Source: Maribacter hydrothermalis
GTDB lineage: Bacteria > Bacteroidota > Bacteroidia > Flavobacteriales > Flavobacteriaceae
DNA: 64,000 bases
Assembly: GCF_001913155.1 (NCBI RefSeq)
Contig: NZ_CP018760.1
Location: forward strand, 3,782,001-3,846,000
Reading direction: 5' to 3'
This document shows positions 203 to 61,875 of the stretch, in pieces. Below the pieces are notes generated by a model, which made no database searches, was not told the DNA's origin, and saw only the letters and a list, made by a program, of their open reading frames with translations. Made by a program: the position numbers and the translations under genes. Position 1 is the first letter of the stretch, and the number at the start of each line of letters is the position of its first letter.

Positions 203-207
203 TGGCT

Positions 208-45372: not shown

Positions 45373-45871
45373 CTAAGGCTTTTCATAGGAGGCTTTGTTA
45401 GGCAACGTTTTTTCCACGTTCGGCTCAAAGAACTGATTTATTACATTTAGTAATTCCGTTTGCGATTTGTTCATATTTAAAACTCCATAAAACGGATTAT
45501 TTACTGATTTGTCAATTACTTGTCCATTCCTAATTTTCATTAAATGAGGAAACTTATTGTAGTGCTTAAGTCCATATAACGCAGCGGAGATAAATTCAGC
45601 ATTATATTCCGATTCAATTTTTCGTCCATTCAGATATACGATTTCTATTCCTTTGTCCAGATTTGGCACAATATTTTCCTCAATATAATTTTTTGAGTTC
45701 TTTCTGTTATTATAGCAAAAGAAGTTTTTTCCATCATTTTCCGTTAAAAACCCAGTATATTTTTTTTCAAATTTTTTGCGTTGAAAATAAGTAAAGGGTA
45801 AAGAAATTATAATAACGGGTATTGTTAGAATGAATAACGGAATTCCAACAAATAATACTAGGAGTAAGTCT
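45373..45871 (-). CDS. Last cassette gene, membrane-anchored protein with uncertain start
   Basis: The frame is open from 45871 to the TAA at 45373, about 165 codons. It opens with a hydrophobic helix (LLLVLFVGIPLFILTIPVII), then a basic stretch (YFQRKKFEKKYTGF) and a soluble part with IEIVYLNGRKIESEYNAEF. No ATG is present in the N-terminal half; the first usual start is GTG at 45669, which would remove the helix. A TTG-started frame just upstream (MRKFKT) would need a frameshift to join. Either a rare start or a frameshift is present. The last codons lie in the truncated attC. No family recognised. Confidence 0.5.
45375..45406 (-). repeat. Truncated terminal attC-like site R8
   Basis: Only the opening arm remains: box GTTGCCT-AAC-AAAGCC on the cassette strand, matching the cassette start GTT-AGGCAAC at 45905-45897. 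The other arm is missing, so the last cassette should no longer be excisable by itself. Confidence 0.6.
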
Positions 45872-45898
45872 TAAATTTTCTCAAGTTTCTACAAAATG

Positions 45899-46102
45899 TT
45901 GCCTAACGTCTGAGCTATGAACAGTACGGGAGCAAACTAGCGTTTGCTTTCCGCCACGCACATAGCGAAATCTTTTGGTTTTGTTTTTTTCTTTGTCCCG
46001 CTTAAAAGCAAAATCCCAAAGATTTTGCGCCATTATTAATATAGGCAGACCTTAGCGTTTAAAGCCCGAAACCCGCATTGTTTATAGGCTTTGTTATGTG
46101 CT
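45899..46102 (-). repeat. attC-like site R7
   Basis: Long subtype of about 204 bp. Opening box GCACAT-AAC matches the CocE cassette start GTT-ATGTGC. Arms contain GAGCTATGAACAGTACGGG and its partner CCCGCATTGTTTATAGGC. It carries an uninterrupted GGCTTTGTT, the site type into which IS110 has jumped in other attC copies. Confidence 0.8.
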
Positions 46103-46116
46103 GGCTTTTCCCACGT

Positions 46117-47850
46117 TCAATCTTTCCAAATCGGAATTTCCACAAAGCTATCATTATACCATTTTATTTTCAATGGTTCTTTCGCATCTTTTATATTTTC
46201 TTCCGCTACTTTTTTCCCCGTACCATAATTCAATTCCGAAAATGGGTTTTTATTCACATTTATGTATACAAGTAGGCGACTACCTTTACTTAATTTTTTA
46301 CTTACTAAATGTGTGTTTGAAAATCTAATTGTCTCTATTTTGTTTGGTTCTAATAATTTTCTTTTGGTTATATCATCTGCATAACTTGCTCTGCCAATAA
46401 TGTAAGACAAGCTGAAATATTCTCCATTTGGCATTACTTCATAAAGTGTAACACCAAAATCAAAATCTTTTTTATTGATGCTTACCTTTAGTTGGCCAAT
46501 AAATGAACCGTTTACAATTATTGATTCCTCCAACGGTTTACTAATAAAATTAAAACCATTGCCCATATCCCTGTAATCTCGAATGATTGGGTCTGGGTAA
46601 TAGTCATTATTCCAGATTTCTCTATTAGAAAAATCAACTTCTTGAAAATGAAAGTTCTTTTCGACGGGTTTCTCAGGACTTAACAAATTTATATCTTCTA
46701 CTTTTTCCTTTGTTAGATATAACTTTAAAGATTTGTTACTCATCTCAGTAATACTTGAAGCACTTCTCCATTCATTTGCTCCCATTACTTGATAGTTAAT
46801 TTTATCTTTTAATTTTTCAGGTTTTTTGCCATTCTTAAAAATGTAGTCAAACCATTGGTAAGTTATTTCGTTAGTGTTTATCAAAGCATCAGCGTCTACT
46901 TTATAACCGTTTACTTCGGGAAAGCCTCCTTTTTGAGCACCAAAATGACCATAAGGTCCAATAATCAAGTAGTGCTCGGCTTGAGGATTATACTTGTAGT
47001 GTTCTCTTAAGTAGTATAATCCAGAATTTTGTGAATCATTGTAGTATCCGTCGATTGAAAGAACAGGAATATCGATTTGGGAAAAATCCTCTTTATAAGG
47101 TGCCATACTTTGCCAATAATCATCAAATGATGGATGGCTTATCCATCGTTGAAACCATTTATTAGGTCTTTCGTCAATACTATCAAGTTTTTTATAAGCT
47201 ATTCCGTTTTCCCACCATTTGTTTTGCATATCTCTAGAACGTTGCCGGTCATTTCCAGCAATCGTATCTAAAGTTTTGTTGTTTCCCACATAAAAAGCCC
47301 ATTCGTAATTCGGGTTAATGAAAACATTATTTTCCATTGGCAAACCCATTCCTGGTCTATTAGCAACGTAAGGAACAATTGTTTTAAGTGCTGGGTGTAA
47401 TTTTTTAGTAGAAGCCCATTGCGTAAATCCATTATAGCTACCTCCAAACATTCCAATCCGTCCGTCACACCATTTTTGTTTGCTAATCCAATCGATTACA
47501 TCGTAAGTATCATTGCCGTCATTTTCGTATGGCCATATTTCGTTAGGACTAAGACGTTTTCCTCTTGTATATGCAATTACTCCAATATAGCCTTTGTTAG
47601 CGGATTCCTTTAAGGTGTTTAAGTCTCCTCCTTTATCTCTTACATAAATTGTACTTTGAAGAATTACTGGTTTTGGTTCGGTTATTTCATTTTTCCTAAC
47701 GATGATTACTGAAACTTTTGCTCCGTCTCTTGTCTCAATTAAAACATCTTGAATATTGTACTCTCCGTCTAATTCTGATGTTTCTTTTTTTTGGCTTGAA
47801 GCGTTACAGCCTATTAAAAGAAAAATGAATAAATGCAGTATTATTTTCAT
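46117..47850 (-). CDS. CocE/NonD-family hydrolase lipoprotein
   Basis: A 577-aa secreted lipoprotein (lipobox FLLIGC). The alpha/beta-hydrolase core has nucleophile Ser in FGGSYNGFTQWA, Asp in LSIDGYYNDSQ and His in IGPYGHFGAQ. RDGAKVSVIIVRK at the N-terminus and the C-terminal jelly-roll domain (from about residue 400) are typical of CocE/NonD and X-Pro dipeptidyl-peptidase-like acyl hydrolases. Likely an esterase, amidase or beta-lactam ester hydrolase outside the cytoplasm. It is the only gene of cassette 7 and is large for a cassette. Confidence 0.85.
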   Translation of the reverse strand: MKIILHLFIFLLIGCNASSQKKETSELDGEYNIQDVLIETRDGAKVSVIIVRKNEITEPKPVILQSTIYVRDKGGDLNTLKESANKGYIGVIAYTRGKRLSPNEIWPYENDGNDTYDVIDWISKQKWCDGRIGMFGGSYNGFTQWASTKKLHPALKTIVPYVANRPGMGLPMENNVFINPNYEWAFYVGNNKTLDTIAGNDRQRSRDMQNKWWENGIAYKKLDSIDERPNKWFQRWISHPSFDDYWQSMAPYKEDFSQIDIPVLSIDGYYNDSQNSGLYYLREHYKYNPQAEHYLIIGPYGHFGAQKGGFPEVNGYKVDADALINTNEITYQWFDYIFKNGKKPEKLKDKINYQVMGANEWRSASSITEMSNKSLKLYLTKEKVEDINLLSPEKPVEKNFHFQEVDFSNREIWNNDYYPDPIIRDYRDMGNGFNFISKPLEESIIVNGSFIGQLKVSINKKDFDFGVTLYEVMPNGEYFSLSYIIGRASYADDITKRKLLEPNKIETIRFSNTHLVSKKLSKGSRLLVYINVNKNPFSELNYGTGKKVAEENIKDAKEPLKIKWYNDSFVEIPIWKD

Positions 47851-47908
47851 TTGGTTGTTTTTATCTAAAGACGACCTTTTTATCAGAATGTTGCATTTTT
47901 TTCAGCTT

Positions 47909-48033
47909 GCACATAACGGTTAGTATATGAAAAGTAGGCGATTTCGAAGCACCAAACTTTCGGTTAAGCACAAAGTTTGATACGGACCACAAGCCTTGGA
48001 TTTAGTACTATTCCGCCTATTTTTTATATACAT
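47909..48033 (-). repeat. attC-like site R6, split by IS110 (continues at 49328-49339)
   Basis: The left arm (AACGGTTAGTATATGAAAAGTAGGCG) and its pairing strand CGCCTATTTTTTATATAC are present. IS110 follows at 48034, and the closing TTGTTGTGGTGC resumes at 49328. The opening box GCACCAC-AAC of the toxin-antitoxin cassette matches its start GTT-GTGGTGC. Confidence 0.75.
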
Positions 48034-48078
48034 CTTAAGTTTGATTCTCAGTAAATTGTTGATATAACTAGAAAGAAC

Positions 48079-48210
48079 AAAAGAGAGAATTAAGGTTACT
48101 ATATACGGTGAAGCTTCAGACTTCGACAACATTGATAATCCTCTCTCTTTTACTACTTAGATCACGTTCAGTTCTGTGAGACTTTAGATCTCGTTTTTAA
48201 GTTGTTGTGA
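48079..48210 (+). ncRNA. Predicted IS110 bridge RNA, copy 1
   Basis: Two stem-loops precede the transposase gene. Loop 1 (48079-48151): outer stem AAAAGAGAG/CTCTCTTTT, inner hairpin GAAG/CTTC; its left side carries TATATACGGTG, identical to attC ends, and its right side CAACA, complementary to TGTTG of the same target. Loop 2 (48162-48210): outer stem TCAC/GTGA, inner GAGA/TCTC; its left side carries CAGTTCT, equal to the IS right end, and its right side TTAAG, complementary to the IS left end CTTAA. This is the layout of target- and donor-binding loops of IS110 bridge RNAs. Confidence 0.7.
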
Positions 48211-48245
48211 GCAGAAGTAGCTGGTTCTTTCATAAAACATTTCTT

Positions 48246-49214
48246 ATGATTAAATATAAAGAAACTTTTGGAGTTGACATCAGTAAAGATGTCTTTGATG
48301 TACATGGTAGTAGCAAAGGTCACGACCAGTATAAGAACAATGAAACGGGGTTCAAGAAATACCTTAAGGAATTACCCAAAGGTTCATTGGTCGTTATGGA
48401 AGCTACCGGTTACTATCATTATAGGCTTGCACAGTTTCTTTACAAAAATAGTGTACTGGTATCCGTTGTAAATCCTTTATCGATAAAGCGATTTATACAA
48501 ATGAAACTTGCCAAGGTAAAAACGGACAAGAGCGATGCCAAGGCTATATGTGAATATGCCCTAATCAACGAGGTTCCTATTTACAATGCCTTGACGGATA
48601 CCCAGAGCGAATGTTTACAGTTGTTCCGCTTATTGGATACTTATTTAAAACAACGTACCGCGACCAAGAACAAGATACATGGGGAAGCTGTTTTGGGGAT
48701 ACCCTCAAAGTTTGTCTATCGTTCCTTGATACGTAACAAGAAGCAGCTGAACAAAGAGGTAGCAGCTATCGAGTCAAAGATACTATCATTGGTAAAGGAG
48801 GACCAACAGGAGCAATTAACATTGTTAACGTCAATACCAGGAATAGGACAAAAGACTGCATTGTTCTTAATTGTTGTCACTGACGGTTTCAACAAGTTCG
48901 AAACAGCAGCACAGCTTTGTAGTTATGTAGGTATAACCCCCACGATACGAGAGTCGGGGAGCAGTGTAAGAGGTCGGGCGCGAATAAGTAAGGTCGGCAA
49001 TAGAAAGCTTCGTAATCTATTGTTTCTATGTTCTTTCAATGCCTGTAAACACAACAAGGCATGCAGAGAAGTATATGAGCGAATCGTGAACAAGGGTAAG
49101 AGCAAGAAACTGGCACTGATAGCCGTTGCCAACAAACTATTAAAACAGTCTTTTGCTATCGCAAAATCTGGCAGACCATATGATGAAACTTACGTTTCTA
49201 TATTGCCTAGATAA
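48246..49214 (+). CDS. IS110-family transposase, copy 1
   Basis: A 322-aa recombinase from the ATG at 48246; an upstream in-frame GTG at 48207 lies in the predicted bridge RNA. The N-terminal DEDD RuvC-like domain starts GVDISKDVFDVHG and has VVMEATGYYHYRLA and KTDKSDAKAICEYA. The C-terminal Transposase_20 domain has LLTSIPGIGQKTALFLIV and the catalytic Ser region ESGSSVRGRARISKVGN. Identical to copy 2. Confidence 0.95.
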   Translation: MIKYKETFGVDISKDVFDVHGSSKGHDQYKNNETGFKKYLKELPKGSLVVMEATGYYHYRLAQFLYKNSVLVSVVNPLSIKRFIQMKLAKVKTDKSDAKAICEYALINEVPIYNALTDTQSECLQLFRLLDTYLKQRTATKNKIHGEAVLGIPSKFVYRSLIRNKKQLNKEVAAIESKILSLVKEDQQEQLTLLTSIPGIGQKTALFLIVVTDGFNKFETAAQLCSYVGITPTIRESGSSVRGRARISKVGNRKLRNLLFLCSFNACKHNKACREVYERIVNKGKSKKLALIAVANKLLKQSFAIAKSGRPYDETYVSILPR

Positions 49215-49345
49215 ATAGCATATAAATTGAATAAAAAAAGCTCAAGAATCTGTTTTTTGAATCTATGAGCCTAGATTAATATTGTCTCAGATTAAAGAAG
49301 AATTTGTTTGTTTTTTACCTCAGTTCTTTGTTGTGGTGCGTTTTT

Positions 49346-49639
49346 CTACGCTGACATTGGTTTCACATTAATTTGTCCGCCAATTGCTTTCAATACTTTC
49401 ATTATCGTTCCGAATTGCGGTTTTGCTCCATCAGATAAAGCTTTGTAAAGACTTGGTCGGCTCATTCCAGATTTCTCCGCAATTTTAGTCATTCCGATTG
49501 CCTTTGCAATATTTCCGATTGCCACAATTAAATCAGAACTATCTCCATCTTCAAGAACTGTATTAAGATATTCAGCAATCATTTCTTCGCTGTCCAAATA
49601 GTCCGCAATATCAAATTTTGTTGTTGCCATATCAATCAT
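49346..49639 (-). CDS. HigA-like antitoxin, cassette-borne
   Basis: A 97-aa protein (alternative ATG at 49630). MATTKFDIADYLDSEEMIAEYL at the N-terminus and the helix-turn-helix GMTKIAEKSGMSRPSLYKAL fit the addiction-module antidote group of HigA-like regulators. It should neutralise the toxin encoded just upstream (8-bp overlap) and repress the pair. Toxin first, antitoxin second is the higBA order. Such pairs are common in integron arrays, where they stabilise cassettes. Confidence 0.85.
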   Translation of the reverse strand: MIDMATTKFDIADYLDSEEMIAEYLNTVLEDGDSSDLIVAIGNIAKAIGMTKIAEKSGMSRPSLYKALSDGAKPQFGTIMKVLKAIGGQINVKPMSA

Positions 49640-49934
49640 TTTTTATTCTGTTCCAAATTTTCTTCGCTTTGTCAATATCCTTTTGTTGGCTTGATTTATC
49701 TCCACCGATTAAAAGGATGACAATCTTGTTATCTTTTTCCTTAAAATACACTCGATAACCTTTGGCATAATTAATCCGCATTTCGCTAATTCCATCTCCA
49801 ACAGGCTTACAATCTCCAAAATGCTCATCGGTTTCGAGTTTCTGAATTCGGAAGAGTATTTTAGATTTCGCTCGAATATCTTTGAGCTTTCTAATCCACT
49901 TATCAAATTCAGTTGTTTTTTCGGTGATAATCAT
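49632..49934 (-). CDS. RelE/HigB-type toxin, cassette-borne
   Basis: A 100-aa protein of the RelE/ParE superfamily, phage Gp49-like/HigB branch. EFDKWIRKLKDIRAKSKILF at the N-terminus, EMRINYAKGYRVYFKEKDN in the core beta-sheet and VILLIGGDKSSQQKDIDKAK are typical. Expected activity is ribosome-dependent mRNA cleavage. It has a leader of about 95 bp behind the attC, longer than most cassettes here, so it may have its own promoter. Confidence 0.85.
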   Translation of the reverse strand: MIITEKTTEFDKWIRKLKDIRAKSKILFRIQKLETDEHFGDCKPVGDGISEMRINYAKGYRVYFKEKDNKIVILLIGGDKSSQQKDIDKAKKIWNRIKND

Positions 49935-50022
49935 TTAAAGTGTATCCATTTAGATACAAATATAATCTAAAATTTGAATTTAAAACAGAAATTTTCGGTT
50001 TTCCAGAAAGTTGCTCTTAAAT

Positions 50023-50161
50023 GCACCACAACGTGTTTGTATATGGTTTGTTGCGTGTTTTAAGCAACTAATTTAGTAAATAATTACCGACCAAGAAAGT
50101 CCGCAAGGACTTTCGTAAGTAGGCAAGAACTAGCAATAAATTATATACGGTGTTGCCCACA
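50023..50161 (-). repeat. attC-like site R5
   Basis: Short subtype. Opening box TGTGGGC-AAC matches the start GTT-GCCCACA of the GIY-YIG-like cassette. Inner hairpin GAAAGTCC/GGACTTTC (50095-50114) differs from L1 by a compensated A:T to G:C change. Confidence 0.8.
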
Positions 50162-50166
50162 GTATT

Positions 50167-51153
50167 TTATCCGAATACATTCATTAAGCTTATTCTATCT
50201 TTGTCAGAATTGAACTCAAACATTTTCATATGATGATGTGTTCGTTCAGTTTTTTCGGTGTAAATTTTACGTGTGTTTTCTGATGTATCCAATTCGATTG
50301 TCAAAGCCTTAATGTCTAAATTGTAGCATTCAGAATAGGATTTGTGCTTTGTTGAAGGAAAACTATCTTTAAACTCAATATTATATTTCGGTTGAAAATA
50401 TTTAATAAGTGCAGCTTCAGTAAAATTTATTTTCTGCTTTTCTGTTATTGAAATTCCATTATTTTCAAAAAAATGTTCTCCTTTTTTACGTTCAATTTTT
50501 GAGTCTTTTTTACTTACTTTTATTAAATCTGCTCCAGCTGCGAATAGCATACTTTGTTGTGAAAAATTAGTTAGAAGAATCCAAATATCAGAATCAGGAT
50601 TTTGAGTTAAAGAATGCGTGTAAATTTTTTGAACTGTTTCGTGAGATGAAAGTCTATCTAAAGCAGTTCTTTTTCCGTTTTTACCATAAGCTTGACCAAT
50701 ATATAATACTTCGTAATCAAGAGTGGTTAAATTCAGATTATTTTCAACGTGTGAGCTGTCAATTAAAGTACTTGGTCTTGCTCCAAACAAGACACCTTTA
50801 TTATCTGAAAAACTAAAGAGATTATAAGGATATTCTGTGTGAAATTCCAATTCCGATTTTGCTTTGTTTAATTCAGTTCCCATTTTAATAACTCCGCCTT
50901 CTGTTGGGTGATGAATAATTAATTCAAAGTCCGCTTTTTTGCCTTTTATCTTAACTGAATTTGGGTCAATTGTAACTTTTGGTCTTCTTAAAACAAAATA
51001 AATATTGCAAGGATTATCTTTATTAAAAGTCTGGTTATTTTTCCCATAATGTTCCAAATCAGAGCCTAAAACAAATTGATATTGATTCAAATACATTAGT
51101 AAAAATGATTCAACTCCAAATCGATAATTGTTCTTTCCAAAGATGTTTTTCAT
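50167..51153 (-). CDS. GIY-YIG-like protein, cassette-borne
   Basis: A 328-aa protein. The central YEVLYIGQAYGKNGKRTALDRLSSH... (residues about 148-172) resembles the GIY-YIG nuclease core with Tyr-Ile-Gly, a later Arg and His. The context HPTEGGVIKMGTELNKAKSE and a basic C-terminus are unfamiliar. A DNA-cleaving role is possible but not certain. The ATG is only 12 bp from the crossover GTT, so there is no room for its own ribosome-binding site; translation signals must come from the neighbouring attC or an internal start is used. Confidence 0.55.
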   Translation of the reverse strand: MKNIFGKNNYRFGVESFLLMYLNQYQFVLGSDLEHYGKNNQTFNKDNPCNIYFVLRRPKVTIDPNSVKIKGKKADFELIIHHPTEGGVIKMGTELNKAKSELEFHTEYPYNLFSFSDNKGVLFGARPSTLIDSSHVENNLNLTTLDYEVLYIGQAYGKNGKRTALDRLSSHETVQKIYTHSLTQNPDSDIWILLTNFSQQSMLFAAGADLIKVSKKDSKIERKKGEHFFENNGISITEKQKINFTEAALIKYFQPKYNIEFKDSFPSTKHKSYSECYNLDIKALTIELDTSENTRKIYTEKTERTHHHMKMFEFNSDKDRISLMNVFG

Positions 51154-51155
51154 AT

Positions 51156-51283
51156 TGTGGGCAACGTGATTGTATATGGAAAGTTGCGTGTTTGCGTGCG
51201 AGGATTTTCCGAAGGAAAATCAGACGTAGCAAACGTGCAACGACCTTTGATTTAGCACAACACCAGCAATTTTTTATATACGG
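51156..51283 (-). repeat. attC-like site R4, split by IS110 (continues at 52653-52664)
   Basis: Contains the inner hairpin GATTTTCC/GGAAAATC at 51203-51221, again a compensated variant, and ends TTTTTTATATACGG before the IS. The closing TTGTTGGCAACA resumes after the IS. Opening box TGTTGCC-AAC matches the next cassette start GTT-GGCAACA. Confidence 0.75.
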
Positions 51284-51358
51284 CTTAAGTTTGATTCTCA
51301 GTAAATTGTTGATATAACTAGAAAGAACAAAAGAGAGAATTAAGGTTACTATATACGG
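51284..51358 (+). repeat. Extra 75-bp copy of the IS110 left end
   Basis: The first 75 bp of the IS, from CTTAAGTTTG to TATATACGG, are present once more directly before copy 2. The unit ends exactly at the TATATACGG that lies in the bridge-RNA target guide and equals the attC target. It looks like a scar of an insertion of one copy into the left end of another. Confidence 0.8.
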
Positions 51359-51403
51359 CTTAAGTTTGATTCTCAGTAAATTGTTGATATAACTAGAAAG
51401 AAC

Positions 51404-51535
51404 AAAAGAGAGAATTAAGGTTACTATATACGGTGAAGCTTCAGACTTCGACAACATTGATAATCCTTTCTCTTTTACTACTTAGATCACGTTCAGTTCT
51501 GTGAGACTTTAGATCTCGTTTTTAAGTTGTTGTGA
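51404..51535 (+). ncRNA. Predicted IS110 bridge RNA, copy 2
   Basis: Same fold and guides as in copy 1, with target guides TATATACGG and CAACA. The single change in the outer stem converts a G:C to a G:U pair and leaves the fold intact. Confidence 0.65.
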
Positions 51536-51570
51536 GCAGAAGTAGCTGGTTCTTTCATAAAACATTTCTT

Positions 51571-52539
51571 ATGATTAAATATAAAGAAACTTTTGGAGTT
51601 GACATCAGTAAAGATGTCTTTGATGTACATGGTAGTAGCAAAGGTCACGACCAGTATAAGAACAATGAAACGGGGTTCAAGAAATACCTTAAGGAATTAC
51701 CCAAAGGTTCATTGGTCGTTATGGAAGCTACCGGTTACTATCATTATAGGCTTGCACAGTTTCTTTACAAAAATAGTGTACTGGTATCCGTTGTAAATCC
51801 TTTATCGATAAAGCGATTTATACAAATGAAACTTGCCAAGGTAAAAACGGACAAGAGCGATGCCAAGGCTATATGTGAATATGCCCTAATCAACGAGGTT
51901 CCTATTTACAATGCCTTGACGGATACCCAGAGCGAATGTTTACAGTTGTTCCGCTTATTGGATACTTATTTAAAACAACGTACCGCGACCAAGAACAAGA
52001 TACATGGGGAAGCTGTTTTGGGGATACCCTCAAAGTTTGTCTATCGTTCCTTGATACGTAACAAGAAGCAGCTGAACAAAGAGGTAGCAGCTATCGAGTC
52101 AAAGATACTATCATTGGTAAAGGAGGACCAACAGGAGCAATTAACATTGTTAACGTCAATACCAGGAATAGGACAAAAGACTGCATTGTTCTTAATTGTT
52201 GTCACTGACGGTTTCAACAAGTTCGAAACAGCAGCACAGCTTTGTAGTTATGTAGGTATAACCCCCACGATACGAGAGTCGGGGAGCAGTGTAAGAGGTC
52301 GGGCGCGAATAAGTAAGGTCGGCAATAGAAAGCTTCGTAATCTATTGTTTCTATGTTCTTTCAATGCCTGTAAACACAACAAGGCATGCAGAGAAGTATA
52401 TGAGCGAATCGTGAACAAGGGTAAGAGCAAGAAACTGGCACTGATAGCCGTTGCCAACAAACTATTAAAACAGTCTTTTGCTATCGCAAAATCTGGCAGA
52501 CCATATGATGAAACTTACGTTTCTATATTGCCTAGATAA
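51571..52539 (+). CDS. IS110-family transposase, copy 2
   Basis: A 322-aa protein identical to copy 1, with the DEDD domain (GVDISKDVF) and the Transposase_20 domain (IPGIGQKTAL). Both copies look functional, which together with their identity points to recent movement. Confidence 0.95.
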   Translation: MIKYKETFGVDISKDVFDVHGSSKGHDQYKNNETGFKKYLKELPKGSLVVMEATGYYHYRLAQFLYKNSVLVSVVNPLSIKRFIQMKLAKVKTDKSDAKAICEYALINEVPIYNALTDTQSECLQLFRLLDTYLKQRTATKNKIHGEAVLGIPSKFVYRSLIRNKKQLNKEVAAIESKILSLVKEDQQEQLTLLTSIPGIGQKTALFLIVVTDGFNKFETAAQLCSYVGITPTIRESGSSVRGRARISKVGNRKLRNLLFLCSFNACKHNKACREVYERIVNKGKSKKLALIAVANKLLKQSFAIAKSGRPYDETYVSILPR

Positions 52540-52668
52540 ATAGCATATAAATTGAATAAAAAAAGCTCAAGAATCTGTTTTTTGAATCTATGAGCCTAGA
52601 TTAATATTGTCTCAGATTAAAGAAGAATTTGTTTGTTTTTTACCTCAGTTCTTTGTTGGCAACAGTAT

Positions 52669-53199
52669 TTATTTTTTCAGTTCGTTCTTTAAATAATTCA
52701 ACTCTTTTTTAATTATAGAAACTAAATCATTGATTGACTTAATTAATTCGGGATATATTTCGTCTGCTTTTTCTCGATGTTCATTATCCAAATTCGTTAC
52801 TATTCCATAATCCGTTCCTCCAACTTTTTTTGGAAGACTTTGTCTGTATCTTGAAGACCAAACATATAAAATATCACTTATTTCACTAAATTTTATATTT
52901 ATACTTTCCGTTGCAAGTAGTTTTGATTTAGCCGAAATAAATGTCAAGTCATTAAATAATTCCGAGTAATCTTTTCCAGTTTTTGTGAATTTCACGGTTT
53001 TGTCAAGTGAAGAAAGAATAGAAATATATAATTCCTCTTTTTCTTTAAATTCCCGAAATGCTAATTCTTGTTTGAATTTTTCTTTTTCACGTTTGCTTGC
53101 TAAATTCCAAGTTATATATGCAACTAAAAGACCAAATAAGCCTGATAAAAATACAGTCAAAATCGGGATAAAATTTATGTTATCTTGAGTATTTTCCAT
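52669..53199 (-). CDS. Membrane-anchored coiled-coil protein, cassette-borne
   Basis: A 176-aa protein. One N-terminal helix (FIPILTVFLSGLFGLLVAYI) is followed by a highly charged helix WNLASKREKEKFKQELAFRE and further helices, so it is a single-pass membrane protein with a long cytoplasmic coiled coil. No family recognised. It is the second gene of cassette 4, 12 bp behind the 128-aa gene. Confidence 0.6.
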   Translation of the reverse strand: MENTQDNINFIPILTVFLSGLFGLLVAYITWNLASKREKEKFKQELAFREFKEKEELYISILSSLDKTVKFTKTGKDYSELFNDLTFISAKSKLLATESINIKFSEISDILYVWSSRYRQSLPKKVGGTDYGIVTNLDNEHREKADEIYPELIKSINDLVSIIKKELNYLKNELKK

Positions 53200-53211
53200 T
53201 TTTAATTTGAA

Positions 53212-53598: not shown

Positions 53599-53640
53599 AA
53601 TATTCTAAATTATTGTCTTTAGTTTCGGTTTTGGTCATAT

Positions 53641-53834
53641 TGTTGCCAACGGTCTCGGCTATGAGCAGTACGGGGGATTTTAAGCACAGGCCTTTCCGTC
53701 TAGCACATAGCAAAGCCTTATTTTTGTTTTTAAATTTAACGATAAAAACTCAAAATAAGGCTTTGCGGAGTTCGATTTAAGCGATAACTTTCGGCAAACA
53801 CAAAAGCCCCGTATTGCTTATAGCCATTGTGCCT
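53641..53834 (-). repeat. attC-like site R3, split by IS1182 (continues at 55544-55563)
   Basis: Long subtype. Arms GGCTATGAGCAGTACGGGGG and its partner CCCCGTATTGCTTATAGCC, plus an inner stem CAAAGCCTTATTTT/AAAATAAGGCTTTG. The part behind the IS (CGGTGTTGTAAAAC) belongs to the other attC end type, so the two halves may come from different sites. Box GTTTTAC-AAC matches the next cassette start. Confidence 0.7.
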
Positions 53835-53903
53835 GTTGCACAAGATATAAAAAATATCGAGCTCTGATCCTTGCCGATCGGACATTTGATCGTAACTTGT
53901 TGT

Positions 53904-55466: not shown

Positions 55467-55481
55467 TACTGAACCGGTAAT

Positions 55482-55508
55482 AATAAAACCTCTTAAAGAG
55501 GCTTTATT
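55482..55508 (+). terminator. Terminator behind the IS1182 transposase
   Basis: Stem AATAAAACCTCTT/AAGAGGCTTTATT with a one-base loop and one mismatch. The flanking A and T runs allow it to work in both directions, so it may also cut cassette transcription coming from the right. Confidence 0.75.
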
Positions 55509-55545
55509 ATGTTGATTTTATTCAGAATTTAAGCTTGTGCAACGG

Positions 55546-56067
55546 TTACCGGTGTTGTAAAACGTTTTTATTCAGTAACTCTTTTTCAATACTTGTCCGA
55601 AATCCAATATAAGTTATTTCGGCAATTTTTATTTTTTCATTTCCAGTCCATTCCGCATCTTCATTCATTAATTTTAATTCCGCTTCGTTTTCCGTAAGAT
55701 TTTTAATTTGTCCGACAAAATATGAATCATCGTCAGTTTCTGTAAATATTGCAATCAACTCTTCGTTTTCTAATTCCGATAAACATTCGGACATATTATT
55801 CATTCTTTCAAGTGGCAGTTTTCCGATAAATTCCGCGTAATTATTATTCTTTATTTCACTTAATTCTTCTTCGTCCCATTCTCGATATTTGTCAATTTCA
55901 AAATTCCTAATAATTGCAAAACCGTCAAATTCTTTTGTTTCGTCATTAAAGCAAATAAACACAAAGATATTCTCATTTGATTTTAAACAAATTCCAGAAT
56001 AAACTTCGTCTCGATTTGGTGCTAAATCAACGTGAATTGGAATTCTATTTTTGATGGTTTCCTGCAT
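55546..56067 (-). CDS. Cassette-borne protein of unknown function
   Basis: A 173-aa acidic soluble protein from the ATG at 56067; the longer frame would start inside attC R2. Segments such as SGICLKSNENIFVFICFNDE and ELIAIFTETDDDSYFVGQIK suggest two beta-barrel-like halves. No family recognised. Its terminal codons (NVLQHR) run into the attC and its TAA lies at the junction with IS1182, so the original C-terminus may have been altered by the insertion. Confidence 0.6.
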   Translation of the reverse strand: MQETIKNRIPIHVDLAPNRDEVYSGICLKSNENIFVFICFNDETKEFDGFAIIRNFEIDKYREWDEEELSEIKNNNYAEFIGKLPLERMNNMSECLSELENEELIAIFTETDDDSYFVGQIKNLTENEAELKLMNEDAEWTGNEKIKIAEITYIGFRTSIEKELLNKNVLQHR

Positions 56068-56086
56068 TTTCTTGGTTTGGTCAAAT

Positions 56087-56288
56087 GTTTTACAACGTCT
56101 CGTATATGAAAAGTAGGGCAGGTGGTAAGCGATGACTTTTCGGTTTAGCCACAAGCCAAAACTTTTGCATTTTGTTTTTATCTTATTTTTCTAAAAGCCA
56201 AATCAAAAGATTTGGCGACTTCGCAAATACGCCCAAGCCTTTGTTTAAGCACCATTCCGCCCTATTTTTTATATACATTGTTGTGCTT
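56087..56288 (-). repeat. attC-like site R2
   Basis: Long subtype of about 202 bp. Arms TATATGAAAAGTAGGGC and GCCCTATTTTTTATATA pair. The loop shares TTTGGCGACTT and CAAATA with R1. Opening box AAGCAC-AAC matches the Gabija-like cassette start GTT-GTGCTT. Confidence 0.8.
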
Positions 56289-56295
56289 TCGTGCT

Positions 56296-57426
56296 TTATT
56301 CGTATTCAATTGTTCCATTTTTTACAAAGCCATCTGTTTTATCACAGACTATTCCAACACTATATTTCGCTCTTGTTATTCCTACATAAAATTTCGCTCT
56401 GGCTTCATTGCTAAACTTACCGACTGAAATAGTATTGTCCTTTATCCAACCAAGCATTCCTTTCGTTGGATAGATTAAAACCCTTTCAAAAGTTAAACCT
56501 TTAGATTGCCCAAAATTAGTAATACTAAATTCGGAATTTGTGTTCTTTGTTAAAGAGTTCCACCTTAATTGGACGGGATTATATTTTGCTAAATAATCAT
56601 CAACTTTGTCTTTTTCAATTATATATATGCCATCATGTTCTGTTGTTTCATTTTGTTTTGAACCACATTGACTATGTTCAGGATAAAGTCTATTTGCAAA
56701 GTCGCATATAGGCTGATTGCATCTGTAAGATTCAGAAAGTGATGTTTCATCAATTTTGAAACCTAATTTACTGCATTCTGTAGTAATGAACTCTTTTAAT
56801 AATCCATTTCTATATTTTTTATATTTCGTAGAATTATGAGTTAAATAGGTAACTTGTCTTGGGTCACAAACCAATGATAGATTTGAACTGCATTGCCCAA
56901 AAGTCCTTAGTAATTCCAAATCGTATCCTGCCAAATCTTGACATTCATCAATTAGTATGTAGTCGTAAATTTCTGTAATACGGTTTATTATTTTTCCTTT
57001 TGTTTCTTTGTTAACTCTAATAGCAAGTTTTGCAACTTTATCAGAATAAATTCTTTTGTTTTTGGTAAAGTAGAATTTATCAAAATTATCCGCTTCTGCA
57101 TATGGAATTTTCCTTCCAGTTCTTTGGTCTGTGTATCTAATTCCCGATTTCTCGTTTACAAGCAGAAGTCCCTTTATTTTGTGGTCAAATAGAATAGTTT
57201 GATAAGGTTTTATGCATTGTTTAATTAAAAATGAAAACCAAGTAGAAATATGAATATTTGAAGGAATACAGCCTATTAATTCAAAAAATTTATTCTTGAT
57301 TTCTTGAGCGTTTGATTCTGTGTAGGTAGTAATTAAAATAGAGTTTTCAGGAAATGACAATGCTTTTTTAATTAAAGCTGTGGTTTTTCCTGAACCTGCC
57401 GATGCTATGATTAATTCGTTAGTCAT
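56296..57426 (-). CDS. UvrD-like helicase, GajB-like partner
   Basis: A 376-aa SF1 helicase. Walker A is ASAGSGKTTALI (residues 8-19), motif Ia LITTYTESNAQEI, motif II YILIDECQDLAGYD and the C-terminal motif VI YVGITRAKYSVGIV. It is shorter than GajB of the founding Gabija system (494 aa) but has the full set of main motifs. It follows the ATPase/TOPRIM gene by 2 bp in the same cassette. Together they resemble Gabija, an anti-phage nuclease complex. Confidence 0.7.
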   Translation of the reverse strand: MTNELIIASAGSGKTTALIKKALSFPENSILITTYTESNAQEIKNKFFELIGCIPSNIHISTWFSFLIKQCIKPYQTILFDHKIKGLLLVNEKSGIRYTDQRTGRKIPYAEADNFDKFYFTKNKRIYSDKVAKLAIRVNKETKGKIINRITEIYDYILIDECQDLAGYDLELLRTFGQCSSNLSLVCDPRQVTYLTHNSTKYKKYRNGLLKEFITTECSKLGFKIDETSLSESYRCNQPICDFANRLYPEHSQCGSKQNETTEHDGIYIIEKDKVDDYLAKYNPVQLRWNSLTKNTNSEFSITNFGQSKGLTFERVLIYPTKGMLGWIKDNTISVGKFSNEARAKFYVGITRAKYSVGIVCDKTDGFVKNGTIEYE

Positions 57427-57428
57427 TA

Positions 57429-59063
57429 TTAAATAACGTCTGAAATAAAATTAGGGAATACAATTGTTTCTTTTGAATCAAACAACTTTAATGCACATTC
57501 TGTTTTATTGAGCTTCATGTATTTATGAAATTCGTCTGCCGTTTTATAATCTTTTTCGAAAACTAGATTGAACAACTCAATAGAATTTGATTTAAGTAAT
57601 TTAGGTTCTAACGTGTTGTAATTAAATGGTTTGCCGTATATTTCAAAATCTCCTTCATCTATTTCGCTATCATAGGAAATTGTAATGTTTGGTTTTGCGT
57701 TTTCTCCTATGTAATCTTCGTATTTGTTTTCAAGTTGTTCAAGACTCCAATCTGTATCTGTAATTACGATTACTGGCTTATTTATTTTCTCTGCTATTTG
57801 TAAAAATCTTAAAAAAGAAGTGCCCACAGAAATTACATCTATTCCGTCTTCTATTGGTAGTTTACCATGTTTTTGTGAATATGCCTTTTGAATAATTAAT
57901 TCGTCTGAATCGCCTTCCACAAGTATTGACTTATTGCTAAGAATTAATCTAAGAGTATCGTAACCAGCTAATCTTTTGAAGTAAGTAAAAGTTTCATCTT
58001 CTAAGTCTTTAAAGGTTATGGTTTTTTGCTCGTTTAATAAGATTAGGCTTTCTAAGCCTAATTTGTTTGCAATAAAACTACTATGAGTAGTTACAATAAT
58101 TTGTTTGTTTTCTGCTCCTTTTTTGAGGTCATGAATTAGCTCATTTAATTTTGTGTGCGATAGGTGATTTTCTGGTTCCTCAATTAAAAGCACATTGGAT
58201 TCTAATGTTTTTTTATGCGATAGAGCCAATTTGGTTTTTATCACACATTGTTCTCCTTTTCCGATATGATGAAATGGAATATCATCAAGATATGTTACTA
58301 AAGAGTTTTCCCAAGAATTTTTTGAAGAAAGTTCAACTGAGAGTTCAACTTTCTTATTGGAAATATTTGAATCAGTTTGAATTTTTTTATTTATGCTAAT
58401 TATAGATTCCTCTTGCATGAAAACATCTTTCATTTTCCTGTGTGCTTGGGAAACATCTACAATTTCTTTCTGGTCTAAAAAGTCTTTAATTATTCTGCTA
58501 ATATAAATATCAGAACCATTCTGCAATCTACCATTTGATGAGTCTATTAATGCAGGTTTAATCGGTATGAGCCTTGGTGTGACTCTCTCGTCTCTAGCGA
58601 AGGATTCCCAATAAAAATTATAATATTCAATGGGTAAACTTTTTATGCTTTCGGTTTGAACTAAAATCTGATATTCAGGTAAATATTTGTTATCAAATTC
58701 AATGTTGAAAGATAATCCAATTGAATCTGATTTTTCAGAGTTTTTATCTCCTTTGAAAATCGAAGGTGCATCAGGCGATAAAAAAACTTCAATTTTAATT
58801 GAAGGTGGTGCTAATGGTGTTTCAGTTTGAAGACTTGAAATATATTCTTTTATAGTTTCTTTGTTGAATATGTATTCATTCAGTTCATTATGAATATATC
58901 GACCTTTAAACCATCCAGAAAGTATAAGGTTTAGAGCTTCAATAATTGTCGATTTTCCTGCTTCATTTTCCCCAACTATGATGTTGACATTTTTATTTAA
59001 TGCTAACTCAAATTCATTTTTGAAACATTTGAAGTTTTTAATTTTTATTTTCTCAATATGCAT
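57429..59063 (-). CDS. OLD-family ATPase with TOPRIM nuclease domain, GajA-like
   Basis: A 544-aa protein. It has an N-terminal ABC-type ATPase with Walker A GENEAGKSTII (about 32-42) and Walker B VLLIEEPENHLSH, and His in IVTTHSSFI. The C-terminal TOPRIM domain has ILVEGDSDELIIQKA and VIVITDTDWSLEQL, giving the Glu and DxD metal ligands. This is the OLD/GajA arrangement of a DNA nicking enzyme controlled by nucleotides. It comes first in a cassette that also carries a UvrD-like helicase, the Gabija order. One of the longest cassettes in the array (about 2.8 kb). Confidence 0.8.
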   Translation of the reverse strand: MHIEKIKIKNFKCFKNEFELALNKNVNIIVGENEAGKSTIIEALNLILSGWFKGRYIHNELNEYIFNKETIKEYISSLQTETPLAPPSIKIEVFLSPDAPSIFKGDKNSEKSDSIGLSFNIEFDNKYLPEYQILVQTESIKSLPIEYYNFYWESFARDERVTPRLIPIKPALIDSSNGRLQNGSDIYISRIIKDFLDQKEIVDVSQAHRKMKDVFMQEESIISINKKIQTDSNISNKKVELSVELSSKNSWENSLVTYLDDIPFHHIGKGEQCVIKTKLALSHKKTLESNVLLIEEPENHLSHTKLNELIHDLKKGAENKQIIVTTHSSFIANKLGLESLILLNEQKTITFKDLEDETFTYFKRLAGYDTLRLILSNKSILVEGDSDELIIQKAYSQKHGKLPIEDGIDVISVGTSFLRFLQIAEKINKPVIVITDTDWSLEQLENKYEDYIGENAKPNITISYDSEIDEGDFEIYGKPFNYNTLEPKLLKSNSIELFNLVFEKDYKTADEFHKYMKLNKTECALKLFDSKETIVFPNFISDVI

Positions 59064-59086
59064 CTAGGTTGGTTTTTTTTTGCATG

Positions 59087-59286
59087 AAGCACAACGGTCT
59101 TGTATATGGCTCGTAGCGTGTAAATTAGCGATTATTTTCGGATTAAGCACAAGCCAGGTTTTTAAATTTTACTATTTATCTTTTTTATTGGAAATCGTCA
59201 ATTTTAAAAATTTGGCGACTTTCCAAATATGCCTTAACTTCGTTTAATCAACTAATTAGCTATGAGCTATATACGTTGTTGTAGGC
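59087..59286 (-). repeat. attC-like site R1
   Basis: Long subtype of 200 bp and the first attC behind the attI-like site. Opening box GCCTAC-AAC matches the first cassette start GTT-GTAGGC. Outer arms TTGTATATGGCTCGTAGC and GCTATGAGCTATATACG pair imperfectly, and an inner AAATTTTA/TAAAATTT-like stem is present. Confidence 0.8.
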
Positions 59287-59292
59287 AGTTTT

Positions 59293-60117
59293 TTATATTG
59301 TTGTAATTGAATTTGCTAATCTCTTTTCGTTTCCAATTGGTGTTGTATAATATCGCTGTTCAATTCCGTACATTAATTGCTTTAAATTTTCCTCCGAACC
59401 AATATTAAAATTTCTGTCTTCGTCTGAAAATTCAAGGTCATTGCAATATTCCTTTATATAGTCATAGATAGAATTTCTTTGTTGAGGATTAAAAGCATTA
59501 AATGTGTCCATAGCCATAGCAATTCTTTTTCTATTCGCCTTTTTTACTTTTGATGCATCATAATCGTCTGTTAAGTTAATGAATTCGTTCTCAAGGAATT
59601 GTTCAGTGTCTTCTTGTGTTGCTTCTCGATATAAAGTTCCGATTCCAGAAAATATTGTTGTGATTGACGTCAGTTTTTTGAAGTAGAGTATATCTTCTTC
59701 GCTGTCATAAATCGCATCTGGTAATTCTTTCAAAATAATTATCGGATTGTCATTTTGAATTTCTGGTTGGTTAGATATTGTAAACCATTTCCGTCTAATA
59801 GTTTGGCTTCTCGATAACTTTTGAAAGTAGTAATATTGGTTATCTTGATAAGAGCATAAATATTTAAGTCTATTATAATCCGCAAGAGCAATTTGATTAT
59901 ATTCCGCTGAATTAAAGTCCGTTGTTAGTATATCGATACAGAAATCAGTTTCGGAAAAATCTTCTATTCCAAACCATTCATCATCTTCAAGCTTATAATC
60001 AGTATCGTATTCGTGTGGATTGTCCAAGTCGTCTGGTAAGTTAAAAATATCCTCATCGGATATCATTTTGACGTATTCTCCATTACGTCCTGTTTTTTTT
60101 GCAAGTAAATGGTTCAT
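59293..60117 (-). CDS. KwaB-like (DUF4868-type) protein, first cassette
   Basis: A 274-aa soluble protein. The order of segments, ADYNRLKYLC, then ELPDAIYDSEEDILYFKKLT, a helical acidic part and KANRKRIAMAMDTFNAF, followed by a C-terminal DYIKEYCNDLEF, looks like DUF4868/KwaB of the Kiwa defence system. I judge this by eye, so it is tentative. The neighbour directly upstream (1 bp gap) is a four-helix membrane protein, as expected for KwaA. KwaB forms a large membrane-associated complex with KwaA and protects against phage. Confidence 0.5.
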   Translation of the reverse strand: MNHLLAKKTGRNGEYVKMISDEDIFNLPDDLDNPHEYDTDYKLEDDEWFGIEDFSETDFCIDILTTDFNSAEYNQIALADYNRLKYLCSYQDNQYYYFQKLSRSQTIRRKWFTISNQPEIQNDNPIIILKELPDAIYDSEEDILYFKKLTSITTIFSGIGTLYREATQEDTEQFLENEFINLTDDYDASKVKKANRKRIAMAMDTFNAFNPQQRNSIYDYIKEYCNDLEFSDEDRNFNIGSEENLKQLMYGIEQRYYTTPIGNEKRLANSITTI

Positions 60118-60118
60118 A

Positions 60119-60658
60119 TTATTTTTTTATGTCGATAAACGTGAAATTATTTATTCTTCTTAATTGTTCTATTTTGATACTTTTTGGGTCTTTTAACTCT
60201 TTTCTTGTTATTACAAAAAGTTGAACATTATTGGTAGTATTCAGGTAGTAGAAGTGATATCTAAACACTAAAAAAAGAGGATTGAAATATAAAGTTTGGG
60301 ATAAAAATGTAAAAATAAATAATATCGCAAACACAAATATTAGTGTTTCAACGTAGGGAACACTTAATGCTACAAAAAAGTATCCTAAATAACTCGGTAA
60401 AAAGGCGTTATTGGCTTGTTCAATACTTATAATTGAAGCTTCTTGAATATTATCTTTACTTAAAAATCTTGCAATCAAAAGGCTGAAATAAGTCAGTCCA
60501 ACAGGAATAAGAAAGTAAATGATGTACGATACGTAATTGGGTAAGTTGATTAATCGGCAGTCTATTTCATTAATCAGAACTTGCTCTTTGACTAAAAAAA
60601 CAACGATTATCAATGATGTTGCATTGAAAGTTAGTAGTAATCTGTATAAAAAGTTCAT
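60119..60658 (-). CDS. KwaA-like four-helix membrane protein, first cassette
   Basis: A 179-aa inner-membrane protein with helices near residues 4-22, 45-65, 88-103 and 104-122 and a basic cytoplasmic tail (ITRKELKDPKSIKIEQLRRI). The segment TLYFNPLFLVFRYHFYYLNT directly behind the last helix resembles KwaA. It is the first gene of the cassette next to attI and is followed by the KwaB-like gene. If Kiwa is confirmed, this would be a complete anti-phage system in the position of the newest cassette. Confidence 0.5.
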   Translation of the reverse strand: MNFLYRLLLTFNATSLIIVVFLVKEQVLINEIDCRLINLPNYVSYIIYFLIPVGLTYFSLLIARFLSKDNIQEASIISIEQANNAFLPSYLGYFFVALSVPYVETLIFVFAILFIFTFLSQTLYFNPLFLVFRYHFYYLNTTNNVQLFVITRKELKDPKSIKIEQLRRINNFTFIDIKK

Positions 60659-60692
60659 TCAGTCATTTGGTTGTTAGTCCGTTTCTTAAATT

Positions 60693-60731
60693 GCCTACAA
60701 CAATTCGATAAACGTACCTAGGTACGTTTAT
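60693..60731 (-). promoter_or_regulatory. attI-like site of the right island
   Basis: A perfect 24-bp palindrome (60708-60731; half-site ATAAACGTACCT) begins 17 bp behind the recombinase stop codon. On the minus strand it is followed by two bases, AATT and the crossover GTT (60701-60699). The spacing equals that of the left island although the palindrome is different, which marks it as the probable primary recombination site. Confidence 0.7.
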
Positions 60732-60747
60732 TTCTTATTTAGGATTA

Positions 60748-61875
60748 CTAATCTAGTGGATTTTTTATACTTTCAAAAGTATTAGTAGCCACATGGGTGT
60801 AAATTTCAGTTGTTTTACTTGAGCTATGTCCTAAGAGTACTTGTATTTGCCTTAAATCTGTCCCAGATTCCAGTAAGTGCGTAGCAAAACTATGTCGCAA
60901 TATATGTGGTGTAACACTTATGCGTATTTTTGCTCTTTCAGCAGCTGACTTTACAATTTTCAATACACTAGCACCGCTATATTTTATTCCAGTTTTACCT
61001 TCAAATAAATAAATTTTAGGTTCATATTTTGTAAAGTATCGCCTTAAGTCTTTTAAGGCATTTCTTGATAACAACGTCTGCCTATCTTTATTTCCCTTTG
61101 AACCTACAACACGAATTAGCATTCGCTTACTATCAATATCTTCTATTTTCAAATTTAAAAGTTCACTACGTCTTAAACCAGAACCATATAATAATTGAAC
61201 AATGCATTTATGCTTTAAATTGTTGGTGTTTTCAATAATTGAAAGTATTTCTTCTTTTGAAATTACTTTAGGTAATTTGGATTCTTTTCTAGGTCGTTCT
61301 ATTTCATAGAAACGGTTTGGCATATCTAAAACTACTTCATAATAAAATTTGATAGCGTTTATGGCTAGGTTAAGGTAAGAGTTCGATACATTTCTCTGAA
61401 CAAGATGTTGTAGAAAGTTCCTAATATCACTTTCATCAATGGTTATTAGTTCCTTTTCTTTATAGTAATTTATAAACATTTCAAAAAAAGAAACGTATGT
61501 GCGTACAGTACTATTGGCGTATCTTTTAAGTTCTAACTTTAATAAGTACTCTTCAGGACAAAGTCTATATTCTGGTACATTAGTCCTATTTCTGAACCAT
61601 TGAACATCTACTGTTTCGTTACTAGTATTTATAGGTTTATTTGTTAAAAATCGATTATAATTTATCCAAACAATACCTTTAAATGTTGTAAAGATTATAC
61701 CCAAGTTTGCCTTAGTATTATGTATATATGCCATGTTATATTGTTTACTCCACTTGGGGTCTGGGAGTCCTTTAATTAAGTTCTGTATCAGTTTATCCGG
61801 GCTAAACTTTATACCAATCATCTTTTGATTATTAATCATTAGATGGTAAAGTGTTATAGATTTTACAGAATTCAT
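60748..61875 (-). CDS. XerC/D-type tyrosine recombinase, putative cassette integrase (right island)
   Basis: A 375-aa orthologue of the left-island recombinase, collinear from end to end. Catalytic residues: Arg in GSGLRRSELL, Lys in VGSKGNKDR, H324 and R327 in PHILRHSFATHLLESG, H350 in LLGHSSSKTT and Y359 in EIYTHV; it ends NPLD. Like its sister it has no IntI-type insertion. The codons are far more AT-rich than those of the left copy. It lies between the divergent zinc-finger gene and the attI-like site, and transcription runs from it into the cassettes. Confidence 0.85.
   Translation of the reverse strand: MNSVKSITLYHLMINNQKMIGIKFSPDKLIQNLIKGLPDPKWSKQYNMAYIHNTKANLGIIFTTFKGIVWINYNRFLTNKPINTSNETVDVQWFRNRTNVPEYRLCPEEYLLKLELKRYANSTVRTYVSFFEMFINYYKEKELITIDESDIRNFLQHLVQRNVSNSYLNLAINAIKFYYEVVLDMPNRFYEIERPRKESKLPKVISKEEILSIIENTNNLKHKCIVQLLYGSGLRRSELLNLKIEDIDSKRMLIRVVGSKGNKDRQTLLSRNALKDLRRYFTKYEPKIYLFEGKTGIKYSGASVLKIVKSAAERAKIRISVTPHILRHSFATHLLESGTDLRQIQVLLGHSSSKTTEIYTHVATNTFESIKNPLD

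Follow-up and report, generated by a model that had tools for sequence, protein, structure and literature searches.

In the canonical integron, the folded bottom strand of a cassette attC site is recombined by IntI with a double-stranded attI site, a single strand being exchanged and replication resolving the remainder. Each cassette corresponds to a circle cut at G^TT. XerA, another tyrosine recombinase, acts at a dif-type site without cassettes. IntI carries an insertion, I2, that it is believed to require in order to handle folded single-stranded DNA. The I2 helix of IntI is held, in passages of one study, to be necessary for capture and to be the innovation that enabled integrons, intermediates being said to be lacking (PMC7790495). 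For Bacteroidetes proper, portions of the IntegronFinder 2.0 report mention In0 elements alone from earlier work, followed by a single complete integron, that of Salinibacter ruber (PMC9024848). Here we analyse a stretch of 64,000 nt from Maribacter hydrothermalis (NZ_CP018760.1, positions 3,782,001 to 3,846,000; hereafter the window), which carries two arrays of cassettes, each adjoining a gene for a 375-aa tyrosine recombinase that lacks I2. Comparison of sequences makes it very probable that both are integron-type arrays, with the recombinase predicted to integrate and remove cassettes at G^TT, probably through the folded bottom strand of attC.

Layout of the two arrays

The original prediction described eight same-strand cassettes behind a 375-aa recombinase at 45375..61875, and this layout is present: on the minus strand throughout, the recombinase gene (60748-61875) is followed by eight cassettes that extend to ~45392. 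To that description we add that attC3, attC4 and attC6 are split by insertion sequences (IS) and that attC8 is truncated. Cassettes range up to ~3 kb in size, and some contain a pair of genes (ORF, open reading frame). The AAC-to-GTT distance is 122-188 nt in the four intact attC. The parts of the right array are as follows.

60748..61875, minus strand: tyrosine recombinase, 375 aa, I2-less
60699..60731, minus strand: attI-like site, with palindrome 60708-60731, spacer and GTT from 60701; breakpoint seen in related loci
59095..60700, minus strand: cassette 1, a Kiwa-like pair of KwaA-like (60119-60658) and KwaB-like (59293-60117) genes
59086..59287, minus strand: attC1, intact
56096..59094, minus strand: cassette 2, the Gabija pair GajA (57429-59063) and GajB (56296-57426)
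56087..56289, minus strand: attC2, intact
53650..56095, minus strand: cassette 3, ORF 55546-56154, with an IS1182-type element (transposase 53871-55466, plus strand) within its attC
53641..55563, minus strand: attC3, split by the IS1182-type element into the R'' box (55554-55563) and a right half (53641 to ~53834)
51165..53649, minus strand: cassette 4, ORFs 53212-53598 and 52669-53199
51156..52664, minus strand: attC4, split by IS110-family copy 2 (transposase 51532-52539, plus strand)
50032..51164, minus strand: cassette 5, 328-aa ORF 50167-51153
50023..50161, minus strand: attC5, intact
47917..50031, minus strand: cassette 6, type II toxin-antitoxin pair 49632-49934 and 49346-49639
47908..49339, minus strand: attC6, split by IS110-family copy 1 (transposase 48207-49214, plus strand)
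45907..47916, minus strand: cassette 7, CocE/NonD hydrolase 46117-47850
45898..46102, minus strand: attC7, intact; the weakest window match to the attC model, 21.9 bits
45392..45906, minus strand: cassette 8 (ORF from 45669), with the R'' box of truncated attC8 at 45397-45406

The left island (67-4948), proposed earlier as a second example, does contain a recombinase (3821-4948) and four cassettes with attC inside the window, the AAC-to-GTT distance being 120-124 nt (4 sites). In the left array, attC matches extend to G000:C1:3747677 of the same genome, ~34 kb past the left end of the window, with one gap of ~12 kb.

3821..4948, minus strand: tyrosine recombinase, 375 aa, 81% identical to the right one
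3774..3803, minus strand: attI-like site, with palindrome 3784-3803, spacer and GTT from 3776
2851..2991, minus strand: left attC1
1778..1914, minus strand: left attC2
808..945, minus strand: left attC3
67..203, minus strand: left attC4; the array runs on past the window edge

Cassette boundaries and the attI-like site

Since a cassette circle is cut at G^TT, the R'' box at the end of a cassette is expected to find its complement in the GTT box with which the same cassette begins, rather than in the R' box that completes the same attC in the array. We found that the end box is the reverse complement of the cassette's own GTT start box in 12/12 window cassettes, with runs of 9-10 nt; the best of 20,000 permutations gave only 7/12 with a run of at least 8. 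Runs between R'' and R' of the same attC were 5, 5, 4, 4, 4, 3, 4, 3, 8 and 4. In 28 other loci, 70/100 consecutive pairs had a run of at least 7 and 65/100 of at least 9, compared with ~6 and ~2 for random pairs and 7 and 0 for the R' box of the same attC. The complementary box of the I2-less family was 10 nt long at 78 sites, 9 at 26, 8 at 2 and 7 at 11, and never longer, whereas it reached 12 nt in the five IntI loci measured.

Cassettes are also found in differing positions and arrays, the clearest case in a small set being one of ~520 nt, 79-81% identical between copies and with edges at C|GTT, that stands first in two loci (L051 and L087, doubled in the latter) and deeper in a third (L054). 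By eye, this shared cassette begins with a hairpin-like stretch.

L087:11161-12203, L051:11172-11693, L054:11583-12103: shared ~520-nt cassette

In all, 71 related loci were fetched, mostly from Flavobacteriaceae, with some from other Bacteroidota and a few from other phyla at low identity. In most loci the recombinase stop codon is followed by a palindrome, a few nucleotides and GTT; the sequence of the palindrome differs across species and its symmetry is kept. Palindromes of at least 10 pairs occurred in 51/66 attI regions versus 12/330 shuffles, and in some loci the best palindrome was a second one, 24-27 nt further up.

Twelve locus pairs were chosen for close kinship, of which 11 had a GTT call (L065/L066 had none) and 10 had sequence to compare (L073/L075 had too little after GTT). 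These ten pairs were 88-100% identical over the 300 nt up to the attI GTT, with identity of 0.51-0.65 over at most 200 nt after it; L047 has only ~135 nt after GTT, which lowers the 0.51 value, and the GTT called in L038/L039 is one within the palindrome, the true GTT following 12 nt later. Two pairs (L078/L102 and L077/L079) were 100% identical over 300 nt before GTT and dropped to 0.64 and 0.59 over 200 nt after it, within the range of unrelated 200-nt pairs from array regions (0.56-0.64, mean 0.60). Of the 171 locus pairs that passed a filter (identity of at least 74%, length of at least 900 nt, end no more than 600 nt from the stop codon), 91 had alignments ending 0-4 nt past a GTT, against a background of 9.2% of positions, with the caveat that the pairs are interdependent. 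These breakpoints identify a putative attI next to the recombinase gene, as expected of an integron.

The placement of signature attC was asymmetric. Among the 64 loci with a readable attI region, 136 lay downstream of the recombinase versus 3 upstream, and of the 42 loci that extend 2 kb or more past the recombinase, 36 showed such sites there. The original prediction had proposed looking in other Flavobacteriia for the same recombinase next to arrays of these repeats, and homologues do stand beside such arrays in many species. The repeats are palindromic and intergenic, as static hairpins such as terminators or repetitive extragenic palindromic (REP)-like elements between genes would also be, and this reading would account for neither the circle rule, the attI breakpoints nor the 136 versus 3 placement downstream of one recombinase family; we give it next to no credence.

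The recombinase lacks I2 and falls outside IntI

Both window recombinases scored below the curated 265-bit cut-off of the IntI profile TIGR02249 (213.6 and 218.8 bits) and above the 220-bit cut-off of the XerA profile NF040815 (230.8 and 238.8 bits). NF040815 is described as a site-specific tyrosine recombinase/integron integrase, and the NCBI protein name follows from it, which makes that name a label and not a test. The interval from KGxKxR to HxLRH was 65 residues in the window recombinase, 65-66 in the readable rows of its family, and 70 and 73 in two further proteins of the same genome, 32-35% identical to the window recombinase and taken for XerC/D, compared with 106-107 in 15/30 IntI rows; the motif pattern left 14/30 IntI rows unread and misread one, L132, as 73, where inspection gave 107. 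VchIntIA aligned to the window recombinase as two stretches with 43 extra residues between them. A structure model (mean predicted local distance difference test score, pLDDT, 82; predicted template modelling score, pTM, 0.55, which leaves the domain arrangement unsure) matched the fold of XerA and IntI structures; from strand 265-268 to the HxxR helix it had just two helices, 271-284 and 301-314, and no extra helix at the place of I2. The absence of the IntI insertion between the Lys and HxxR regions, as claimed earlier, is thus borne out (65 versus 106-107 residues).

In a tree of 64 rows, IntI formed one clade (support 100/100) and the family of the window recombinase another (100/99). When two XerA chains and VchIntIA were added, and L149, a relative with eight near-identical copies in its genome and no attC found, was left out, the IntI clade recurred (100/100), and a wider clade (99/94) joined IntI with the I2-less rows, with XerC/D and XerA outside, XerA being represented by only two rows. 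Because of this grouping, the window recombinase looks like a sister of IntI rather than of any Xer. The earlier suggestion that another Xer-like family runs the logic of an integron therefore holds in that both 375-aa proteins lie outside the supported IntI clade, and needs revision as to which side of the tree they fall on. An ordinary IntI with a hidden I2 is ruled out by the TIGR02249 score, the interval, the VchIntIA alignment and the tree. An N-terminal extension of ~105 residues lies outside the match to 4a8e, and this domain is absent from an I2-less relative that has an array (L036/L152, 272 aa).

Residues R235, K263, H324, R327, H350 and Y359, which we take to be the catalytic residues, were among the invariant columns of 34 chosen diverse sequences. 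This bears on the idea that the arrays are degenerate canonical integrons whose IntI has lost I2 and is dead, a reading to which the joint clade of IntI and the I2-less family, exclusive of XerA, lends some colour. Besides the invariant catalytic columns, the first cassettes differ between near-identical loci, so that exchange looks recent, and the IntI rows form one clade that excludes the window family; we regard a dead IntI as extremely improbable.

The same-strand, upstream position of the recombinase was confirmed, although it is no mark of difference from classical integrons as had been thought. One report describes Treponema intI as likewise transcribed in the direction of its cassettes (PMC3607928), and in four I2-less relatives (L139, L140, L141 and L152; 43-46% identity) the attC arrays occupy the strand opposite the recombinase, which is the classical divergent arrangement. 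Orientation was rejected as a distinguishing feature for these two reasons.

attC sites with two conserved T-G pairs

The repeats were originally said to have AAC...GTT ends, and we found R'' and R' boxes with the AAC/GTT core, an unpaired spacer and a stem. A first stem scan without fixed spacers was unspecific (23 matches per window strand at a lower threshold, 74 in five shuffles), and Rfam gave no match within the window. A scan of the 71 loci that left stem positions 7 and 12 unscored returned 162 stems on the strand of the recombinase and 25 on the opposite one; 30 shuffled loci yielded 3. At position 7, 130 of the 162 stems combined A in L'' with G in the reverse-complemented L', and at position 12, 135 did so; on the opposite strand the counts were 3 and 3 of 25. 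These two positions are A-C mismatches on the top strand and T-G pairs on the bottom strand. The commonest spacers were 3 + 6 nt (93 stems) and 3 + 5 nt (38 stems).

A 16-bp stem was kept in 51 sites, with two-sided compensatory changes at 12/16 pairs; since these sites were picked for both A/G positions, T-G pairs are present in 51/51 by construction, and 130 and 135 of 162 are the unbiased figures. The bottom strand was the more stable in 136/147 attC (2 ties, 9 top) and in 86/147 control regions, an excess due in part to the T-G pairs themselves.

When the surroundings of 14 IntI from the same phylum were scanned strictly for canonical attC (RYYYAAC, GTTRRRY), L160 alone gave sites, two on each strand, and we therefore applied a gap-tolerant stem search and the circle rule alike to IntI loci and to loci of the I2-less family. 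Circle-linked sites of the 14 IntI loci had gaps in 49/49 cases and the A/G positions in 2/49 (their array strand was assumed to be divergent, which 37/49 sites fit), whereas those of 67 I2-less loci were gapless in 101/145 and had the A/G positions in 121/145. The four relatives with divergent layout agreed with the latter (gaps 2/13, A/G 10/13). The extrahelical bases that canonical attC carry on the folded bottom strand thus appear mostly to be missing.

Published attC are described, in extracts of two reports, as having two extrahelical bases, the first of which is essential for strand choice (PMC3053210, PMC2727003); without them, one of these extracts adds, an unpaired spacer can still impose strand choice (PMC2727003), an effect that the uneven spacers of the I2-less attC fit. 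Because of their conservation and strand asymmetry, we infer that the T-G pairs, together with unpaired spacers of 3 versus 5-6 nt, may replace the extrahelical bases as the mark of the strand, which would be a new principle of strand choice.

On this evidence the local recombinase would itself perform recombination, and its substrate would be single-stranded: it would bind the boxes of the folded bottom strand of a cassette attC plus double-stranded attI, one strand would be exchanged at G^TT, and replication would resolve the remainder, as in canonical integrons. The same recombinase might instead move cassettes on double-stranded DNA in the manner of Xer, the hairpin having another role or forming a cruciform. 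The lack of I2, the closeness of the recombinase to XerA in sequence and fold, and the attI palindrome, such as a double-strand binding site would have, fit that alternative. Against it, complementarity between R'' and the first bases of the same cassette is preserved, and this would be of consequence only where R'' and R' pair within a folded strand; compensatory changes keep the stem; and only one strand can form the fixed T-G pairs. We consider the double-stranded route unlikely, and favour exchange on the folded bottom strand.

Distribution of the arrays and of IntI

A third full recombinase of the same genome (G000:C1:1174822-1175937) has 2 attC matches nearby, and a recombinase fragment (G000:C1:1416670-1417200) lies ~8.5 kb from one; altogether 28/34 attC matches of the genome cluster by the three full recombinases or the fragment, and 6 lie elsewhere. 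With the attC model built here, at least one attC was found in this genome and in 43/59 relatives, and within the genus in this genome and 34/35 relatives. At least 3 attC were present in 30/32 relatives with a close recombinase versus 9/27 without (p 9e-7, uncorrected for kinship). Nine genomes without a close recombinase (G001, G002, G003, G018, G028, G033, G034, G037 and G048) carried 3-29 attC matches in groups resembling clusters of attC sites lacking integron-integrases (CALIN). Recombinase relatives also occur on Bacteroidota plasmids, with downstream attC matches in Chryseobacterium (4) and Persicobacter (1). Among more distant relatives, L145 and L146 had 3 and 2 attC matches, and no match with an E-value of 1 or below was obtained for L142, L149 and L150.

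Since IntI is able to work in trans, an ordinary IntI gene located elsewhere could serve these arrays and leave the 375-aa enzyme a bystander, and true IntI does exist in the phylum, 84/296 genomes having a match over the TIGR02249 cut-off. The same cut-off was passed in 0/36 genomes of the genus, a scan whose control genomes gave no match at the strict E-value and which therefore relies on the phylum scan with the same model; the latter gave 0/29 for the same family and 0/6 for the same order. Yet attC are present in nearly every genus genome scanned for them, the sites differ from the uniformly gapped ones linked to IntI, and the attI-like site follows directly after the stop codon of the 375-aa enzyme. 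An IntI acting in trans is, we judge, very improbable, and the adjoining recombinase remains our candidate.

Weighing the evidence

Several results weigh against an I2-less integron. All of the evidence is comparative and drawn from sequence, and the necessity of I2 for capture is the published view (in the passages of PMC7790495 cited above). Support for the narrow-family clade fell from 100/99 to 91/83 once XerA was added. Signature attC were lacking in 6/42 loci with downstream room, and 9/27 relatives without a close recombinase still carry at least 3 attC, so that arrays outlive or lack the enzyme. The circle rule failed in 30/100 consecutive pairs of the 28 other loci, likely because an attC in between was not found. 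In two of the eight intact window sites, attC7 and left attC1, the top strand was the more stable; several sites lacked the full stem in their predicted minimum-energy fold; and 44/145 sites of the I2-less family were gapped, so that bulges are not wholly absent.

With these points taken into account, we lean slightly towards a broader proposal, that a second class of integron exists across Bacteroidota, which captures cassettes without I2 by way of folded single-stranded attC whose strand is chosen by two fixed T-G pairs. If this is true, and the recombinase is a sister of IntI, capture needs no I2 and may predate it, and the family would be the natural intermediate said to be missing. A large natural family with the layout of an integron and without I2 makes the I2 requirement directly testable. 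Bacteria would have a second, overlooked way to capture genes such as anti-phage defences, and searches that require an IntI-specific domain would not score such arrays as complete integrons. In excerpts of the open-licence PMC literature we found no account of integrons in Flavobacteriia that lack I2 and have such sites.

Cargo, insertion sequences and flanking genes

PADLOC was run on ten cassette proteins. Cassette 1 matched KwaB (1e-17) and KwaA (4e-13), cassette 2 matched GajA (1e-210) and GajB (7e-132), the toxin of cassette 6 had a weak match to NsnC (2e-5), and five of the ten had no PADLOC match. As the first two cassettes carry Kiwa-like and Gabija genes, the arrays would be a route by which defences spread.

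A shortened recombinase relative, matching residues 146-375 at 57%, lies directly upstream of tet(X3) on the Acinetobacter indicus plasmid p80-1-2-tetX3 (L179:4043-6064). An attI-like palindrome and GTT stand between the two genes, and no partner box was found after tet(X3). This one record, among 47 Acinetobacter plasmid records that match the recombinase, points to tet(X3) having been the first cassette of such an array before leaving it.

An IS110-family element is inserted at one point of attC, immediately behind the R'' box (AACA) and ahead of the L'' box (GTATATA), twice in the window and also in L089; the L038 contig, likewise with such an insertion in an attC, includes just the first end of the element. 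Such an element likely targets the I2-less type of attC, judging from these positions. Beside copy 2, at window 51319-51433, an end of the element is partly repeated in tandem.

window ~48034-49328 and ~51284-52653, L089:16127-17439, L038:13700-14097: IS110-family elements in attC

Both arrays share a paralogous flank of 131-133-aa, 136-146-aa and 226-236-aa genes and a 438-aa-type tyrosine integrase, and for this reason the whole integron platform looks to have been duplicated as an island. The 136-146-aa, 226-236-aa and integrase genes are present in just 3, 3 and 4 of 67 other loci.

4992-7954 and 61934-64000, also 43535-45046: paralogous flank of the two arrays

A divergent gene for a 131-aa cysteine-containing protein (window 61934-62329, plus strand) flanks the right recombinase; a homologue flanks the recombinase in 51/67 related loci and is found anywhere in the locus in 58/67. 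Directly upstream of the right recombinase start, within window 61876-61933, the palindrome ATATTATACGTATAATAT was seen by eye and is a possible autoregulation site.

Comparison with known systems

The window arrays resemble canonical integrons in the attI-like site by the recombinase, cassettes in one direction, AAC...GTT ends of attC, circle complementarity, a shared cassette with G^TT edges and greater stability of the bottom strand (136/147). They differ in a recombinase without I2 that lies outside IntI, and in attC that are mostly bulge-free, with two fixed T-G pairs on the bottom strand and a complementary box of at most 10 nt, where the five IntI loci measured reach up to 12. XerA (NF040815; PDB 4a8e, 5hxy) likewise has no I2, and 4a8e is the best solved-structure sequence match (1.5e-43), whereas the window recombinase has the N-terminal extension of ~105 residues and is nearer to IntI in the tree.

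In the atypical Treponema integron the recombinase is also transcribed toward the cassettes, and, unlike here, that enzyme is called intI in the report (PMC3607928). A search that requires an IntI-specific domain would, from what sections of PMC9668308 describe, at best call the window arrays CALIN or else overlook them; they differ from CALIN in having a recombinase and an attI-like site adjoining. Finally, IS1111 members that target attC are known from part of another report (PMC11187229); the IS110-family element found at one attC point, twice in the window and also in L038 and L089, is comparable, and differs in that its target is the I2-less type of attC.

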